NCBI GenBank assembly: GCA_021803215.1
Contig: JAJZLV010000075.1
Location: forward strand, 1-32,748
DNA: 32,748 nt
Reading direction: 5' to 3'
Source of the DNA: Actinomycetes bacterium
Lineage (GTDB): Bacteria; Actinomycetota; Acidimicrobiia; Acidimicrobiales; Bog-793
Positions 3,482 to 12,544 of the stretch are shown piece after piece. Position 1 is the first letter of the stretch. Every line of letters starts with the position of its first letter. Made by a program: the position numbers and the translations under genes. Below the pieces are notes generated by a model, which saw only the letters and a list, made by a program, of their open reading frames with translations, was not told where the DNA came from and did no database searches.

Positions 3482-4419
3482 GCAGGTCGGCCGCCAGGGA
3501 GCTCGCCTTGTTCCTGCTGCGCGCCCCGACCCGGCCGGCCGGGGTCGAGGCGCCGAGGCTCAAGAGCCGGACGGGCGTCGAGTACCCGACCGAGTGGGCG
3601 CGCCGCTATGCGGTTCGTCTGGCGCGGGCCATGGTGCTCGACGATGTCACGCTTCCCCTCGTGACGGCGGCGGCCCGACCGGCGTTCTATGGACGAGACG
3701 CCCTCGAGCGCCTCGAGGGCCCGGTCATCGTCGCCGCCAACCACGCCAGCCACCTCGACACCGCCATCCTGCTCGCCTCCCTTCCGCCCAAGCGCCGGCA
3801 CCACACCGTCGTGGCCGCGGCAGCCGACTACTTCTTCGACCGGCACTGGAAGGCGGCCCTCAGCGCCTTCAGCCTCGGAGCGATCCCGATGGAACGGGTG
3901 AAAGTGAACCGTCGCTCGGCCGACGCGGCCGCCGCGCTCATCGAAGAGGGCTGGTCGCTCATAATCTTTCCCGAGGGCGGCCGCTCGCCACATGGCTGGG
4001 GGCAGGAATTCAAAGGCGGTGCCGCCTACCTCGCCAAGCGCTGCCAGGTTCCGGTGGCGCCGGTTCACCTCCGCGGCACGCGAGCCATCCTCCCAAAGGT
4101 GCCAGAGCCCGCCCGGAGCCGCTTCCGGCCGGGAAAGACCGCCGTCAGGTTCGGAGAGCTCCTCTGGCCGAGCGAAGAGGAGGACGCCAGGAGGTTCGCC
4201 GCCCGGATCGAGGCCGCCGTCGCCCTCCTCGCCGACGAGGCCGAGGGCGACTGGTGGACCGCCCGGTTGAGAGCCGGTCGCGCGGAGACACCCTCTCTTC
4301 GCGGCCCGGCGGTCTCTCCCTGGCGGCGCGCCTGGTCTCTCCCGGCTTCGGCCGATCCCTCTCGCCGGCCCTCAGGGCGCCCCGAGGGCAGTGCCGCCAC
4401 CGCCTGGGACGAAGGCTAG
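3478..4419 (+). CDS. PlsC-type 1-acyl-glycerol-phosphate acyltransferase
   Basis: A 313-aa protein; GTG at 3478 overlaps the LarA-like stop (GTGA), although the frame is open further upstream. The acyltransferase signature is NHASHLD (H89-x4-D94) followed by FPEGGRS (164-170) and the PVAPVHLRGT segment typical of PlsC. The family moves an acyl chain from acyl-CoA or acyl-ACP to a glycerol-phosphate-like hydroxyl at the inner membrane. The N-terminal 65 residues are not obviously signal-like. The C-terminal 60 residues are Arg/Ser/Pro-rich and probably disordered. It closes the four-gene coupled cluster, which hints that the cluster's product is acylated. The stop overlaps the convergent GntR stop over a palindromic CTAG. 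Confidence 0.88.
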   Translation: MSRSAARELALFLLRAPTRPAGVEAPRLKSRTGVEYPTEWARRYAVRLARAMVLDDVTLPLVTAAARPAFYGRDALERLEGPVIVAANHASHLDTAILLASLPPKRRHHTVVAAAADYFFDRHWKAALSAFSLGAIPMERVKVNRRSADAAAALIEEGWSLIIFPEGGRSPHGWGQEFKGGAAYLAKRCQVPVAPVHLRGTRAILPKVPEPARSRFRPGKTAVRFGELLWPSEEEDARRFAARIEAAVALLADEAEGDWWTARLRAGRAETPSLRGPAVSPWRRAWSLPASADPSRRPSGRPEGSAATAWDEG

Positions 4420-5165
4420 GAGGGTCGCGGGATGCTCCCCCAGCGGGCCTGGAGCACGTAGGCTGAGCCTCTCACCCGCGAGATCCGCCACTCGACAGGG
4501 CGGGTGCCGGCGTAGCTGACGAGCTCGATCTGGAACAGCCCCTCCTCCGGCCCGAGGGAGAGAAGGCTCGCCTCCTCCTCGCGCGGGCGAACCGCCCGCA
4601 CCTCCTCCTCGGCCCCAGTCACCTGGATCTGGCAACGCTCCTCCAAAGCGCCGTAGATCGAGCCCTGTTCGAGCTCGCTCGAGAGGTAGCTCTTCCTCTC
4701 CCGCTCCGAGAGGGAGAGAGCCGAGCGGTCGATTGCGACCCGAAGGCCGTCGGCACTCCGCAGCCGCTCCACCCAGACCACCAGGTTGGCGGGGTCGAGT
4801 CCGAGGCGGCGAGCCGCCCGCTCGTCGGCTCTGGCCTCGATCAGGCGCAGCACCTTGGTCTCCTCGTTCAGCCCGGCGGCCCGGAGCGTCCCCGAGAGCC
4901 CGGGAGCTCCGATGAGGCCCTGCTCCAGCTGGCGGTGGACGACGAAGGTGCCGCTCCCTCTCCTCGCCCGGAGGAGGCCCTCTTCTCTGAGGTGCCTGAT
5001 CGCCTCTCGCACCGTCGCCCGGCTCACCGAGAACTCCTCGCACAGTTCCATCTCGGTCGGGAGGCGCTCGCGGTACTCGCCCGACAAGAGCCGGTCTCGC
5101 AGCACGCCCAGCAGCTGAGACCACAAGGGCTCTGGCAAAGCGCCGTCAAGTAGCTGAGCGGCCAC
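4416..5165 (-). CDS. GntR/HutC-family transcriptional regulator (UTRA domain)
   Basis: A 249-aa regulator. The N-terminal winged helix (about residues 15-80) shows the GntR signature LPTEMELCEEFSVSRATVRE, then REEGLLRARRGSGTFV. The C-terminal two-thirds fits the UTRA/HutC effector domain, which binds small carboxylates or sugar phosphates. The GTG start is supported by a TANNNT hexamer (TAGGTT) exactly 6 nt upstream, consistent with a leaderless transcript. It converges on the PlsC gene with a 4-nt stop overlap and diverges from the XRE gene. A plausible target is the neighbouring HAD/MDR/LarA/PlsC cluster, but that is inference, since the promoter of the cluster lies outside the window. Confidence 0.9.
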   Translation of the reverse strand: MAAQLLDGALPEPLWSQLLGVLRDRLLSGEYRERLPTEMELCEEFSVSRATVREAIRHLREEGLLRARRGSGTFVVHRQLEQGLIGAPGLSGTLRAAGLNEETKVLRLIEARADERAARRLGLDPANLVVWVERLRSADGLRVAIDRSALSLSERERKSYLSSELEQGSIYGALEERCQIQVTGAEEEVRAVRPREEEASLLSLGPEEGLFQIELVSYAGTRPVEWRISRVRGSAYVLQARWGSIPRPS

Positions 5166-5171
5166 GGACTC

Positions 5172-5177
5172 AACCTA
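5172..5177 (-). promoter_or_regulatory. -10 hexamer of leaderless gntR promoter
   Basis: TAGGTT on the minus strand, followed by 6 nt and then the GTG start. This is the TANNNT-N6/7-start arrangement of actinobacterial leaderless promoters. A TTGCCC about 19 nt upstream could serve as a weak -35. Confidence 0.5.
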
Positions 5178-5262
5178 GCCTTTACCCATCTGAGCTGGGC
5201 AAACTCGACAGCTACCTATCAGTCTGTAGACTGTTGCGTAGCGTCTCCAGCAGCTTTGGCAA

Positions 5263-5493
5263 GTGCCCGAAGGAGAGCTGCAGCGCATCGTCGGGGACAA
5301 CCTGCGCCGCCGCAGGCTAGAAAAGGGGCTCTCCCAGGAGGCCTTTGCCGAGCTGCTCGGCTGGCACCGCACCTACATCGGCGGCCTCGAGCGGGGCGAG
5401 CGCAACCTCTCCCTCCGGGCGCTCGAGAGAATTGCCGGGCGCCTCGGCGTCGCCCCCTACGAGCTCCTCGAGCCCTCGGACCCGCCCCGGTAG
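5263..5493 (+). CDS. Small XRE-family helix-turn-helix regulator
   Basis: A 76-aa single-domain HTH_3 (Cro/C1-type) protein. Residues 9-65 hold the whole fold: GDNLRRRRLEKGLSQEAFAE, then WHRTYIGGLERGERNLSL and LERIAGRLGV. The recognition-helix region HRTYIGGLERGERN resembles that of restriction-modification controller (C) proteins, but no restriction or methylase gene is nearby. The start is GTG. It diverges from gntR across a 97-bp spacer, and its last 37 bp overlap the convergent DMT transporter gene. Regulatory targets are unknown; self-regulation is common in this family. Confidence 0.85.
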   Translation: MPEGELQRIVGDNLRRRRLEKGLSQEAFAELLGWHRTYIGGLERGERNLSLRALERIAGRLGVAPYELLEPSDPPR

Positions 5494-6368
5494 GATCGCC
5501 GGCGGGACGGGGCGAGCTCCACCAGGTACATGGCGGTGAGCACCATGGCCCCGCCGACCAGCACCCGCCAGGAAAGCTCTTCTCCGGCCAGGGCAGCAAA
5601 AAGTCCGGCAAAAACGGGCTCCATCGTGAGCACGATCGCGACCCGGGTGGGAGCCATGCGGCTTTGGGCCCAGGTCTGGATCAAAAAGGCCAGCGCCGTC
5701 GCCAGAACCGCCGTCGCGCCGACGGCCGCCCAGAGACCTAGGTCCGGCGGAGGCGAAAGTCCCCCGCTCACCCCTGCGACGGCAATGCAGCAGGCGGCCG
5801 CCGCCGCCAGCTGGACGGTCGACAAGGCGAACGGGTCGTGGGCAGCGGCCCACTCCCCGAGGGCGACGATCTGGAGGGCGAAGCAGAGAGCACAGACGAG
5901 CGTCAGCCATTCGCCGAGCCCGAAGCCGAGGCGGTTGAGAGAGATCACGGCCAGTCCGGCGCCGGCCAGAGCCGTGGCGGTCCAGGCCGGGAGCGAGATC
6001 CGCCGCCTCAGCAGAGACCCGACGAGAAGCGGCGTCAGCACCACATACATCCCGGTGAGAAAGCCGGAGACGGCCGCCGAGGTGTGTTCGAGGCCGAAGG
6101 TCTGGGCGATGTAGCCGGCCCCGAGGAGAAGGCCGGCGACCCCTCCCTGCCAGGCTCCCCGTCGCGAGATCCTGCTCAAGGCGCTCGGTCGGACGGCGAT
6201 CATCGCCAAGGTGGCGATGCCAAAGCGCCAGGCGAGGAAGTCCATCACCGCCATGTACGAGACGGCCGCCTTCACGATGACGAAGGTCGACCCCCAGACA
6301 ACCGTCACCGCCAGGAGCAGCGCGATCGGGACGGCTTGGGAGCCACCTTGTTTCCCCGGAGCAGGCAC
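5457..6368 (-). CDS. DMT-superfamily (EamA) membrane transporter
   Basis: A 303-aa integral membrane protein with two tandem EamA repeats and about ten hydrophobic helices, beginning with AVPIALLLAVTVVWGSTFVIVK. The WGSTF motif in helix 1 and GAGYIAQTFGLEHTSAAVSGFL are typical of YedA/RhaT-like exporters, and the second repeat carries the conserved MEPVFAGLFA. The family exports or imports amino acids and other small metabolites; the substrate is unknown. The GTG start at 6368 has a purine-rich SD (GAGGAAGGA) about 10 nt upstream. The 3' end overlaps the XRE gene by 37 bp. The C-terminal tail is Arg/Ser-rich and cytosolic. Confidence 0.92.
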   Translation of the reverse strand: MPAPGKQGGSQAVPIALLLAVTVVWGSTFVIVKAAVSYMAVMDFLAWRFGIATLAMIAVRPSALSRISRRGAWQGGVAGLLLGAGYIAQTFGLEHTSAAVSGFLTGMYVVLTPLLVGSLLRRRISLPAWTATALAGAGLAVISLNRLGFGLGEWLTLVCALCFALQIVALGEWAAAHDPFALSTVQLAAAAACCIAVAGVSGGLSPPPDLGLWAAVGATAVLATALAFLIQTWAQSRMAPTRVAIVLTMEPVFAGLFAALAGEELSWRVLVGGAMVLTAMYLVELAPSRRRSYRGGSEGSRSS

Positions 6369-6455
6369 GGCCCAACATCCTTCCTCAACTGCCGAGGACG
6401 CCAGGAAGCTCGCCGGAAGAGGCGGCCGGCCGCATCATGGAGCTAGACACTTGCA

Positions 6456-8216: not shown

Positions 8217-10898
8217 CTAGGCGCTCGGACGGGGCGTCCGTATCCGCCCGAGCCGGCGGATGAGAAGAACAGGGGTCTGCTCGCTTCCCTGGCCGAGCGG
8301 GTTGTCTCCAAAGAGCCAGGCGATCAGCTTTCGGTCGACACCCCGGCTCGCCCCGAGGACCGTAGCTCCCCTGTCGTTGGCGTCGACGATGGCGACCGAG
8401 ACGGCGTCGCCTGCTTCCTCGCTGAGTCGCTTGGCGAGGCGCTCGGCCACCCCATCTGGATCCTCGGGAGCGAGCTTGGCCTGGCTGTCGGAAGGCGGGA
8501 GGGTGCCGGCGGTCGGGCCGTCGATGGCCGCCACCCGGCCGCCCGCTACCCGATAGAAGTCGCCGTGACGCCCGACCAGACGGCCGAGAGCTCCGGCTGC
8601 GGCGGCCGCCAGAATCCGCTTTCGCCCCGCCTCGTCGATGGCGAGCTGCATCGTCTCGGGTATGCCCAGCCCAATGCCGGCCGGGCTGCGCGCGACGAAG
8701 CGGCTCAAGAGCTTCGCGAGCGGGCTCGGAGAGATCTCATCGAGGGGGAACGAGCGGCCCTGGGCGACGGCGACCGCTTTCTCGGAGATGGCGACGATGT
8801 CTCCCTGGGCAAGACCGAGGCGGCCGCCCGCCACGGCCAGCACCGACTCCTCGACGATCCTCTCTAGGTCGTCGCCGGGGGCGATCTTCGGGGTGCGCAC
8901 GGGCGCCCGGCCGTAGACCGAGCGGCCGTCGGGTCCGCAGCTGAAGACGTGACGGCCCGGATTGGCCTGCACGCTCACCCAGCTCGGTGCCTCGCCACCG
9001 CAGAGCGAAGCCGCCTCCAGGTCGGCGGCCGCCTGCAGGGAGCGCTGTGGTCGGCGGCCTTCGGGCGAGAGGGGGACAGGGCCGTGGAAGACCCGCAGCC
9101 AGGCCTCGACATTGAGCACCCGCCAGAAAAGGGGCGACTCCTCGAGCTCACCCTCGCAGACTGCTCGGAAGCCATGGGCGATCGAGGGCCCGTCCCAGTA
9201 GGGCCGGGAGCAGAAGGAAGGTGAGCGGAAGATGCCCTGCACCGTCGCCCGTTGCGAACGGAGCCAGCGGATCTCAGGAGTCGTGAAGCCGATCTTCTTC
9301 CGTCTAAGACGCACCTTCTCGGGTAGCACAGTCTTGAAGGCCTCTCGCAGGATGTAGCGACTCCAGCCGTGCCGGATTATGGCGTCCTCGGGCAGCCCGA
9401 GCACGAGCTCGACCAGCTCTTGATCCAAGAAGGGGGGTCGGCTCTCGATCGACCAGGCCATCGAGTTGCGGTCCTCGTACCGCAAGAGCGAGGGAAGCGA
9501 GTAGCGGCTCAGGTCCTGGGCGAGCCGCCCTTTCAGATTGTCCTGCAGCCGCTCGTCCGAGGCGCGGGCGGCCGCCGTCCGCTTGGTGTCGCCGAGGAGG
9601 GGGCGGCACAAGAGGGCCGGATCGACCCGCTTTCTCCGGTCGAGGAGCTTCTGGAGGACGAGCGGGCGCAGCACGTCGCCAGCCGCCTTCGACTCCCTGG
9701 CCAGCAGCTCGAGCTTGCGCTCAACCGCCAGCTGGCGGAGGTAGACGTAGTGATACGGCACGTAGCCGGCCAGGAGCTCGTCTCCTCCCTGCCCGTCCAA
9801 AAGGACCTTCGCCTGGCCGTGGGCGAGCTGCATCACCCGGTACTGGGCGTAAGGGCCGGAAGAGATCATCGGCTCGTCCTGATGCCACACCAGCTGGGGC
9901 AGGTCCTCGAACAGCTCCGGCGCCTTCGGGCGGACATAGGAGCTGCCGGCCCCCGAGAGGTCCAAGACCGACTCTATGTAGGCCTGCTCGTCGATCGGAT
10001 CCCCGTCGAAGACAGCCGAGAAGGTGGCGAGCCGTTCGCCCATCGAGGAGGCGTCGGGCACCTTGTCCGCCAACAGCTCGGACATCACACAGACGATGGA
10101 GGAGGAGTCGAGGCCGCCCGACAGACAGGTCCCGACGGTGACGTCAGCCACGAGCCGCCGTTCGACAGAGCGGGTGAATGCCTGGCGGAACTCGGCCGGT
10201 TCACAGGAGCTCTCCCGGCGGAGCTGTGGCTCCCAATAGCGCCAGGTGGAGCGGGCAGATGCTCTCGGCTCATCGAGCGGCACCGTCACTACCGAAGCCG
10301 GCGGCACCTGGTAGACGGACTCGAAGAAGGTCTGCTCGTCGTGATCGTGCAGGCTCAACAGCAGGTAGTCGACGAGGCGCTGGTCGTTCACGACCGGGAC
10401 GAGGTCCGGGTCTGCCAGGAGAGCCTTAATCTCCGAGGCAAAGAGCAAGCGCTCATGCGTCTCGGCGAAGTAAAGCGGCTTTATCCCGAGGTGGTCACGG
10501 CACAAGACGAGCGCGCCTTTTCGCTCGTCCAAGATGGCAAAGGCCCACATGCCGTTGAAGCGCTCGACGCAGGCCGGCCCCCACTCCTCGTAGGCGGCCA
10601 GCACCACCTCTGTGTCGCAGTGGCTCTCGAAGCTGTGACCGGCCTCTTCCAGCTCGGCACGCAGCTGGCGAAAATTGTAGACCTCGCCGTTGTAGACGAG
10701 GTGGATGTCGCCGGTCTTGTTCGACCAGGGCTGGTGGCCATGCTCGAGGTCGATGATCGAGAGCCGCCGGTGGCCAAGGCTCGCAGCCGCCGTCTCGAGA
10801 AAGCCCTCGTCGTCCGGACCGCGGTGGAAGATCCGCTCGGTCATGGCGGCGAGAAGGCCGTGGTCTACCCGGCCGAGAAACCCGGCGATGCCGCACAT
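8217..10898 (-). CDS. Asparagine synthetase (AsnB) fused to CofE-like F420 gamma-glutamyl ligase domain
   Basis: An 893-aa two-enzyme fusion in one uninterrupted frame. Residues 1-610 form a complete class-II glutamine-hydrolysing asparagine synthetase: nucleophile Cys2 (MCGIAGF), RGPDDEG (26-32), YNGEVYN (69-75), PP-loop SGGLDSS (260-266), DGQGGDELLAGY (368-379) and SRPPFLD (486-492). Residues about 665-880 resemble CofE (PF01996-type): IAPGDDL, GDIVAISEKAVAVAQGR (699-715), LAPEDPDGVAERL (809-821), VDANDRG (838-844) and DNPLGQGSEQTP (865-876). AsnB uses ATP and glutamine to amidate a carboxylate. CofE adds glutamate to F420-0 with GTP. AsnB paralogues in mycobacteria and corynebacteria (LtsA) amidate cell-wall diaminopimelate, so free aspartate may not be the substrate. 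It starts 3 nt after the HAD-PlsC stop with SD AGGAG, in one operon. The normal AsnB length is about 600-650 aa. Confidence 0.85.
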   Translation of the reverse strand: MCGIAGFLGRVDHGLLAAMTERIFHRGPDDEGFLETAAASLGHRRLSIIDLEHGHQPWSNKTGDIHLVYNGEVYNFRQLRAELEEAGHSFESHCDTEVVLAAYEEWGPACVERFNGMWAFAILDERKGALVLCRDHLGIKPLYFAETHERLLFASEIKALLADPDLVPVVNDQRLVDYLLLSLHDHDEQTFFESVYQVPPASVVTVPLDEPRASARSTWRYWEPQLRRESSCEPAEFRQAFTRSVERRLVADVTVGTCLSGGLDSSSIVCVMSELLADKVPDASSMGERLATFSAVFDGDPIDEQAYIESVLDLSGAGSSYVRPKAPELFEDLPQLVWHQDEPMISSGPYAQYRVMQLAHGQAKVLLDGQGGDELLAGYVPYHYVYLRQLAVERKLELLARESKAAGDVLRPLVLQKLLDRRKRVDPALLCRPLLGDTKRTAAARASDERLQDNLKGRLAQDLSRYSLPSLLRYEDRNSMAWSIESRPPFLDQELVELVLGLPEDAIIRHGWSRYILREAFKTVLPEKVRLRRKKIGFTTPEIRWLRSQRATVQGIFRSPSFCSRPYWDGPSIAHGFRAVCEGELEESPLFWRVLNVEAWLRVFHGPVPLSPEGRRPQRSLQAAADLEAASLCGGEAPSWVSVQANPGRHVFSCGPDGRSVYGRAPVRTPKIAPGDDLERIVEESVLAVAGGRLGLAQGDIVAISEKAVAVAQGRSFPLDEISPSPLAKLLSRFVARSPAGIGLGIPETMQLAIDEAGRKRILAAAAAGALGRLVGRHGDFYRVAGGRVAAIDGPTAGTLPPSDSQAKLAPEDPDGVAERLAKRLSEEAGDAVSVAIVDANDRGATVLGASRGVDRKLIAWLFGDNPLGQGSEQTPVLLIRRLGRIRTPRPSA

Positions 10899-10901
10899 GG
10901 G

Positions 10902-12329
10902 CTAGCTCCTGTTCTCCGCCGAAACTCCGACGGCTCGTTCCTCGCCGACCCTTCCCGGCGGGTAGGTCGCAACCAACTCTTGCTCGCTCGGCCGGCGCCA
11001 TCGCCGCCCCTCGGGCGGAAGGAGGCTGGAGATTGCCTCCATGATCCGCTCGGTGTCTTCCTCGGCGTCGCTGGGTCCGAGGCCGAGGCCACCGACCGGG
11101 CCCCCGACTCGCACCGTCACGAGTGGCGGGTTGAAGAGCTGGGTCATGCGGGGCAGACGGTGTGAGCGAGGCCAGACCGCCTCGGTGTTCCAGAGGGCCA
11201 CCGGGATGACGGGTGCCTTGCTGCGCGCCGCCAGGCGGGCAGCTCCGGTCTTGCCTCGTAGGACCGGATCGAAAAACGCCCTGCCCCGCGGGATTGTCCC
11301 CTGCGGCAGCAGGGCGAGCCCCTCGCCCGCTCTCAGCACCCTCGCGGCCCGCTCGAGCGAGGCCGCCGCCTGCCCTGCCCGGTCGACCTCTATGCCGCCC
11401 AGCGCCCGCAGGACCTGGCCGATCAAGGGCGCCTCGAAGAGCTCCTTTTTGGCGAGGAATCGCACGGGGCGGCCCTTCCCGGCGATAAGGAGGGCGAGGG
11501 CGACCACGTCGAAATAGCTGCGGTGGTTTGCGACGAGGATGAAAGGCCCCTCGTCCGGCAGCCGCTCGACGCCTTCGAGGTCGAAGCGGGCATAGGGAAA
11601 GAGCTCCGGGCGAACGAGGTGCCGGCCGATGTCGAAGGCCTCGAGGCCGGCCAGCGTCAACACACCGGGCGGCACGTCCAGGTGAAGCACGGGCCAGCGG
11701 TGCACCAGGGCGACCGAGTGGAGGGCGAGATCGGGGTTGACCGCCCGGGGATGCCCGACCGAGTGAAGAAGGAGGAGGTCGTTCACCGAGTCCGAGTAGG
11801 CGAAGCTGGAGGCGAGATCGATCTCGTGGCTGGCCGCAAAGCGCCGCACGGCAGTGAGCTTCCCCAAGCCCCAGACGAAGCCCCCCTCGAGCCGCCCCGT
11901 GTAGCGCCCGTCCCGGCTGGCATATCGGGTCGCCACCACCTCGTCGATGCCGAGACGCCGGGCAAGCGGAGCCACCAGGTCATACGGTGTCGTCGTGGCG
12001 AGGAGGAGGAGGTCCCCAGCCTCCCGGTGCTCGCCCAGGACGCCGGGGGCGTAGGCCGCCAGCCGGCTCATCAGGAGCTCGGCTGCTTGCTCGCCCGCCT
12101 CTCTCACCCTCTCGACCGGCCAACCCCGCACCGCAAGGGCGGCCCCGCGGGCCAGCGCCATGCCGAACGGGTTCTCACCGAAAGCGTCGTAGGCGCGGTA
12201 CATGAGCGACTCGCCCGGGAGCGAGCCCCGCCTGAGCCCCACCCTTTTGAGAGCCTCGTTGAGCAGCGGCCCGCTTGCACCCTTCAAGAGGGTGCGATCG
12301 AGATCGAAGATGGCGGCTCGTCGTGGCAC
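10902..12329 (-). CDS. HAD-IB phosphatase / PlsC acyltransferase fusion
   Basis: A 475-aa fusion. The HAD half (about 1-215) has motif I FDLDRTLL (Asp9, Asp11), motif II Thr in LLATTTPYD, Lys157 and YSDSVNDLLLL. The PlsC half (from about 240) has NHRSYFD (H269-x4-D274) and PQGTIPRG (342-349), where most PlsC proteins have PEGT, so a Gln stands in place of Glu. Such fusions occur in actinobacteria (mycobacterial HAD/PlsC proteins are known) and are thought to act in phospholipid or glycolipid acylation at the membrane. The frame is open to 12521, but GTG 12329 puts the HAD motif at the expected place and lies 7 nt after a TATCTT hexamer. It is the first gene of an operon with AsnB-CofE, 3 nt downstream. 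Confidence 0.87.
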   Translation of the reverse strand: MPRRAAIFDLDRTLLKGASGPLLNEALKRVGLRRGSLPGESLMYRAYDAFGENPFGMALARGAALAVRGWPVERVREAGEQAAELLMSRLAAYAPGVLGEHREAGDLLLLATTTPYDLVAPLARRLGIDEVVATRYASRDGRYTGRLEGGFVWGLGKLTAVRRFAASHEIDLASSFAYSDSVNDLLLLHSVGHPRAVNPDLALHSVALVHRWPVLHLDVPPGVLTLAGLEAFDIGRHLVRPELFPYARFDLEGVERLPDEGPFILVANHRSYFDVVALALLIAGKGRPVRFLAKKELFEAPLIGQVLRALGGIEVDRAGQAAASLERAARVLRAGEGLALLPQGTIPRGRAFFDPVLRGKTGAARLAARSKAPVIPVALWNTEAVWPRSHRLPRMTQLFNPPLVTVRVGGPVGGLGLGPSDAEEDTERIMEAISSLLPPEGRRWRRPSEQELVATYPPGRVGEERAVGVSAENRS

Positions 12330-12336
12330 CCTCGCC

Positions 12337-12342
12337 AAGATA
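12337..12342 (-). promoter_or_regulatory. -10 hexamer of leaderless HAD-PlsC operon promoter
   Basis: TATCTT on the minus strand, then 7 nt (GGCGAGG), then GTG at 12329. Transcription would start at or next to the start codon. The hexamer argues against the longer frame reaching 12521. Confidence 0.5.
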
Positions 12343-12383
12343 GGCAGGCTCTCGGGCCCCGTCGGCAATTCGGGGCTGGACGC

Positions 12384-12425
12384 GAAGAAGGGACCGGCGG
12401 GGGGGGAGATACCGGTCCCTTCTTC
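12384..12425. repeat. Perfect 14-bp inverted repeat with G-rich loop
   Basis: The left arm GAAGAAGGGACCGG (12384-12397) pairs perfectly with CCGGTCCCTTCTTC (12412-12425) around a 14-nt G-rich loop. It lies about 40 bp upstream of the HAD-PlsC -10 hexamer and about 130 bp upstream of lysR. As RNA it would form a very stable hairpin, but if HAD-PlsC mRNA is leaderless the element acts as DNA, as an operator, or as the end of an upstream antisense transcript. Confidence 0.75.
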
Positions 12426-12440
12426 CAAGACTCTCCAGGG

Positions 12441-12463
12441 CCGGTGGGGGGGAGGTACCGGCG
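12441..12463. repeat. Imperfect second copy of the CCGG-G-run-CCGG element
   Basis: CCGGTGGGGGGGAGGTACCGGCG repeats the core of the hairpin at 12394-12416 (CCGGCGGGGGGGGAGATACCGGT) 47 bp downstream. Both have CCGG, a G-run, GAG/GGT, TACCGG. The long outer arms are missing from this copy. Together they look like a duplicated protein-binding element in the divergent HAD-PlsC / lysR spacer. Confidence 0.6.
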
Positions 12464-12503
12464 GATCCTGTGGTCTGTTTCGAGAGCCATTCTCCGCCAG
12501 CAC

Positions 12504-12544
12504 CTGATATCTGTCAAACACATCCTAGTGATATCAGCTATCAT
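12504..12544 (+). promoter_or_regulatory. lysR promoter with 8-bp inverted repeat
   Basis: CTGATATC (12504-12511) and GATATCAG (12530-12537) form a perfect inverted repeat with an 18-nt spacer. A TATCAT -10 hexamer (12539-12544) follows directly, 8 nt before the lysR ATG. This AT-rich patch stands out from the surrounding DNA. The layout suits autoregulation by the LysR protein and possibly control of the divergent operon. Confidence 0.55.

Follow-up and report, generated by a model that had tools for sequence, protein, structure and literature searches.

The window (the whole stretch of DNA analysed, 32,748 nucleotides) carries on its minus strand a single open frame in which an AsnB-type amidotransferase is followed by a linker and a domain of the fold of CofE, the F420 gamma-glutamyl ligase (Table 1). 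The first-pass annotation had proposed that AsnB and a CofE-like domain, and with them two amide-forming enzyme types, are joined in one chain of this length, and Pfam domains, conserved motifs and predicted structure all bear this out: GATase_7, Asn_synthase and PF01996 each scored above their curated cut-offs, and structure prediction recovered the CofE fold in the C-terminal part. The same fusion was found as one open frame in more than ten genomes, both related and distant, and an assembly artefact or a frameshift between the domains is thereby ruled out. Within the library covered, a literature search returned no match for a CofE-type ligase paired with an asparagine synthetase, and no paper on the pairing, in agreement with the earlier remark that its author knew of no characterised protein of such architecture.

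Table 1 Features of the fused gene and of its upstream neighbour, in window coordinates.
Feature	Position	Strand	Basis or remark
Fused gene, 893 aa	8217..10898	minus	ATG at 10898, stop 8217-8219; full-length fusion also in relatives
AsnB-type glutamine amidotransferase, residues 1-602	9093..10898	minus	Pfam/NCBIfam, motif alignment, fold
Linker, residues 603-660, predicted helices	8919..9092	minus	Full-length model and alignment
CofE-fold ligase-like domain, residues 661-884	8247..8918	minus	Pfam, predicted fold, residue conservation
HAD phosphatase + PlsC-type acyltransferase, upstream gene	10902..12521	minus	Stop 3 nt before fusion ATG

The N-terminal part is a complete AsnB-type amidotransferase. 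Within the 893-aa protein, Pfam placed GATase_7 at residues 43-162 (163 bits) and Asn_synthase at residues 236-602 (236 bits), and residues 2-607 of the full-length model matched E. coli AsnB and TsnB9 (Z 33). Cys2, the PP-loop SGGLDSS and DGQGGDELLAGY are all found, and motif alignment showed that the lysine at the position of E. coli K449 is kept; Cys2, the SGGxDSS PP-loop and this lysine were invariant in two alignments. By motif alignment, EPM(I/V) stands where E. coli AsnB has its TTIR motif, in a region associated with the binding of aspartate. Loss of Asp-binding residues has been taken, in a study of Listeria, to argue for an acceptor other than Asp (PMC8554201). The unlinked, non-E. 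coli-type AsnBs that we compared also lack TTIR, however, so that its loss in the fusion does not discriminate, nor does it exclude asparagine synthesis.

We therefore weighed whether the AsnB part might be a plain asparagine synthetase, its Asn (or aspartate) being coupled to an acceptor by the ligase domain. Consistent with this, the AsnB part exceeded the cut-off of the asparagine synthase equivalog TIGR01536 (451 versus 267 bits), its own genome encodes no other AsnB (several other pair-bearing genomes encode additional AsnBs), and in Roizmanbacteria (L046 and L048) asnB, the ligase-like gene, gatC and gatA lie in a row, joined in L048 by gatB. Set against these points, besides the replaced TTIR motif with the qualification just given, is how the genomes appear to charge Asn-tRNA: AsnRS was over cut-off in none of the 21 genomes tested and in 1 of 12 further pair-bearing genomes (the Roizmanbacteria matches, at about 230 bits, were below cut-off), and GatB was over cut-off in 9 of the 11 genomes tested, with none found in the window's draft genome. 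With AsnRS mostly missing and GatB mostly present, Asn-tRNA most likely arises by transamidation, leaving AsnB available for a different task; translation in most pair-bearing genomes probably does without free Asn. Demand for Asn in translation was accordingly disfavoured as the role of AsnB, AsnRS being absent from the tested relatives, and we consider a plain synthetase feeding the ligase domain to be fairly unlikely.

The C-terminal domain was matched by PF01996 (F420_ligase) at residues 667-843 with 71.4 bits (E 1e-19, cut-off 25). An AlphaFold2 model of residues 640-893, computed from an alignment of 44 sequences, had a pLDDT of 89.7, and its only significant solved matches in Foldseek were the CofE entries of A. 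fulgidus (best E 4e-12). VIA-align superposed it on A. fulgidus CofE 2PHN with a Z of 15.6 (rmsd 3.1, 186 residues aligned; next fold, Z 4.9), and the domain as it stands in the full-length model matched CofE with a Z of 14.4. Shared with CofE and with the N-terminal domain of FbiB are this fold, the motifs GDxVxxxxKxVxxxxGR and PEDPD, and a metal-binding Asp: D839 aligns with D150 of A. fulgidus CofE, which, together with D109 of that enzyme, we take to hold the metals.

The domain nonetheless departs from CofE and FbiB in several respects. Counted from the metal-binding Asp to where the last strand ends, 109 of 109 family members have 39-48 residues (43-45 in most), versus 69-70 in 12 rows of canonical CofE; the stretch of about 26 residues that is thus missing would include part of a site in A. 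fulgidus CofE. The family has a block of its own (PxxMxxA, GxFYRxAG), and where CofE has the motif QKVVSKAEGR its second lysine is lost (EKAVAVAQGR in the window), so that the nucleotide or acceptor site differs. Candidate active-site residues are kept: ten positions (M750, G758, G779, F781, G786, D793, P811, D839, N866 and P876) were invariant in the 109 family members, a set made up mostly of free-standing proteins. These ten residues speak for a working and probably metal- and nucleotide-dependent site that takes another acceptor.

The missing stretch and the lost lysine could instead mean that the domain has ceased to be a ligase and controls the AsnB part by sensing a nucleotide or a metabolite, and AsnBs with a degenerate, shortened C-terminus in three genomes indicate that AsnB can work without it. 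But a sensor would have to be squared with the invariance of D793, D839 and eight other positions in 109 mostly free-standing proteins, and a regulatory domain of AsnB is not expected to stand free in Bacillota and Thermotogota, as this family does; we regard a purely regulatory role as quite improbable.

That the domain acts as an F420 gamma-glutamyl ligase, as first annotated, was not borne out: it belongs to a separate branch of PF01996, fell far short of the equivalog cut-offs, and has no link to F420 genes. It scored 47.9 bits against TIGR01916 (CofE equivalog; cut-off 180.65), 44.4 bits against PRK13293 (CofE; cut-off 274) and 15.9 bits against TIGR04132 (FolC2; cut-off 350). On another contig of the window's genome, a canonical CofE (191 bits) adjoins CofD. 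CofD itself was below cut-off in 12 of the 20 family-bearing genomes (most of the 12 are drafts), and the asnB-ligase pair is present in four genomes that lack it (G295, which is 98% complete, two Roizmanbacteria and the genome of L052). The pair thus occurs independently of F420. FolC was detected in each of the 21 genomes tested and passed its cut-off in 20 of them.

These observations bear on the broader possibility that the domain builds the polyglutamate tails of F420 or folate, for which its fold and Pfam family, both the same as those of CofE, might be cited. FolC2, the chlamydial COG1478 protein modelled by TIGR04132 as a putative folate gamma-glutamate ligase, is likewise a PF01996 branch with a non-F420 substrate, and it rescues a folC mutant of E. 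coli (PMC1971073). A CofE role was nevertheless rejected on the strength of the missed equivalog cut-offs, the separate cofE beside cofD and the pair-bearing genomes without CofD, and a FolC2 folate role by its missed cut-off and the presence of FolC, with which a second folate enzyme is not needed. Taken together, the same four lines of evidence make either kind of tail a very unlikely product of this domain.

To place the fusion among its relatives, 60 related genomes were scanned for the ligase-like domain. A genome of the same genus carried it at 91% identity and nine further genomes at 66-84% identity, in each case with AsnB in the same open frame, so that about ten genomes of this bacterial family share the fusion, and the AsnB-ligase fusion was also recovered from three additional Actinomycetota genomes, from Dormibacterota (L108 and L116) and from one Chloroflexota genome (L110). 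Elsewhere the two proteins are encoded by separate genes. At four loci (L030, L031, L032 and L033) asnB is followed directly by an unfused ligase-like gene, and a species-genome scan with comparison of open reading frames added Intrasporangiaceae (including Phycicoccus elongatus Lp2), Chloroflexota, Dormibacterota and Roizmanbacteria; a literature search on Tetrasphaera elongata gave no match. The distance from the asnB stop to the start of the ligase domain match was 3-140 nt in the 16 cases measured, and at one locus (L043) another frame sits between the two genes. One bacterial family holds both forms, operon or fused (G003 and G021 versus G000 and others), a mixture that suggests horizontal exchange.

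The ligase-like family as a whole spans Actinomycetota, Chloroflexota, Dormibacterota, Patescibacteria, Bacillota and Thermotogota, and is free-standing in the last two. It also occurs alone in genomes without any AsnB (G363 and G385), and the ligase must therefore have a task of its own, independent of AsnB, to which amidation would be an added step. Other arrangements were seen as well: TPR repeats precede the ligase-like domain at three loci (L134, L140 and L137), a different type of partner, and two or three ligase-like copies lie close together in Bacillota and in a Parcubacteria genome (L115:992-3379, L077 and L061).

The two halves of the pair differ in how their trees reflect the linkage. 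In a tree of 68 AsnBs, built by a quick method without bootstrap, the partner-linked enzymes formed one clade of 42 rows (SH-aLRT 100), comprising 21 operon forms, 16 fusions, 2 operon forms next to fusions (L124 and L125) and 3 truncated paralogs; all members apart from the truncated paralogs are fused to a ligase gene or lie near one. The three paralogs (L034, at 4079-6430, L173 and L175) have a shortened, degenerate C-terminus with no PF01996 match, and an intact fusion is present in the same genomes. A class-wide AsnB search separated its matches into two groups (E 1e-133 or better versus 1e-78 or worse), and those members of the better-scoring group that were read with their flanks all have a ligase partner. 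In the ligase-domain tree, by contrast, AsnB linkage appears in three separate spots; the ligase may have been swapped or the partner lost repeatedly, and the rooting is unsure. That the linked AsnBs form one clade, nearly all of them with a partner, means that this kind of AsnB and the ligase-like protein have long been passed on jointly, a history within which the fusion arose. Moreover, with genes for the two enzymes lying next to each other in several phyla, the pair very probably serves one pathway.

Gene neighbours gave few clues as to which pathway this might be. The HAD-PlsC gene precedes the fusion among closely related members of its family but not in other phyla, which makes it a purely local operon partner. 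The gatC and gatA genes follow the pair in Roizmanbacteria alone, and a leucine-dehydrogenase-like gene lies near the ligase-like gene only at free-standing copies in the Sulfobacillus group (L078, L088 and about 18 more loci). Across phyla, the neighbourhood comparison revealed no third gene that consistently travels with the pair, an unexpected result if the pair belongs to a biosynthetic pathway.

The neighbourhoods also speak to a possible function in the envelope. Peptidoglycan-amidating AsnB and LtsA are, like the N-terminal part of the fusion, AsnB-type enzymes that amidate a carboxylate other than free Asp, and we know of no ligase domain on them. Accordingly, one domain of the pair might attach an amino acid to a peptidoglycan precursor while the other amidates a carboxylate, for example on mDAP or an Asp bridge. 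Such amidation of mDAP by AsnB-type enzymes is known from Listeria, and from LtsA in Corynebacterium (PMC8554201), and the window's AsnB resembles the Listeria enzyme in lacking residues that are associated with aspartate binding in E. coli; but AsnBs that have no ligase partner show the same features. No cell-wall gene travelled with the pair in the neighbourhood comparison, and the window's fusion has no envelope gene context, its Mur-type genes being more than 12 kb away. Peptidoglycan modification therefore strikes us as rather improbable.

AsnB-type enzymes activate a carboxylate by adenylation and then form the amide with nitrogen taken from glutamine. CofE, for its part, uses GTP to activate a carboxylate as an acyl phosphate and then couples L-glutamate to it (PMC10861534). 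A precedent for the combination of such steps is offered by the osmolyte pathway of AsnO and Ngg, in which an amidotransferase of the AsnB type and an enzyme that forms the peptide together make N-acetylglutaminylglutamine amide. The fusion shows the same kind of coupling, although Ngg belongs to the GNAT family and has no relation to CofE (PMC8070244) and the AsnB part of the fusion reached 320 bits against a cut-off of 570 for TIGR03104.

With these chemistries in mind, we find it plausible, if not yet probable, that the fused protein is a bifunctional enzyme that carries out two amide-forming steps on one carboxylate metabolite. The CofE-fold domain would phosphorylate an acceptor carboxylate in a nucleotide- and metal-dependent manner and would then couple an amino acid to it, most likely L-glutamate. 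The AsnB part would release ammonia from glutamine via Cys2, adenylate a carboxylate and amidate it. Both steps could use one and the same small metabolite, or each could work on an intermediate that the other leads to or from, yielding an amidated aminoacyl compound as AsnO and Ngg do, and the fusion would descend from the conserved two-gene operon. The analysis shows the architecture, the fold, the conservation of candidate active-site residues, the long coupling of the genes and the independence from F420; we infer that both sites are active, that glutamate is the amine and that the two steps lead to one shared product of this identity. Because the same two enzymes form a conserved operon, we prefer a joint two-step product to the alternatives, and to this extent the first-pass annotation is supported, whereas its ligase step, as F420 gamma-glutamyl ligation, is not. 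The occurrence of the ligase family alone in AsnB-free genomes weighs most against the two-step reading, and the want of a consistent third gene and the lost lysine also count against it. A more specific version, which we put forward tentatively and as the less probable, is that this unnamed PF01996 branch makes an amide-linked, perhaps gamma-glutamyl, metabolite or cofactor that AsnB caps by amidation, fusion and operon being two forms of the same pathway.

Overall, the pair is a conserved module built from known enzyme types. To our knowledge, the F420 ligase family genes that are found in many F420-less bacteria have no known function; fusion and a conserved operon with the well-understood AsnB give a firm functional link for one such orphan branch of PF01996, and with it a narrow set of assays. 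The same findings carry a warning for genome annotation, in that such genes should not be read as evidence of F420 or asparagine synthesis. If both sites are active, these bacteria, down to the reduced genomes of Patescibacteria, would make a doubly modified amide metabolite or cofactor that is not yet described.
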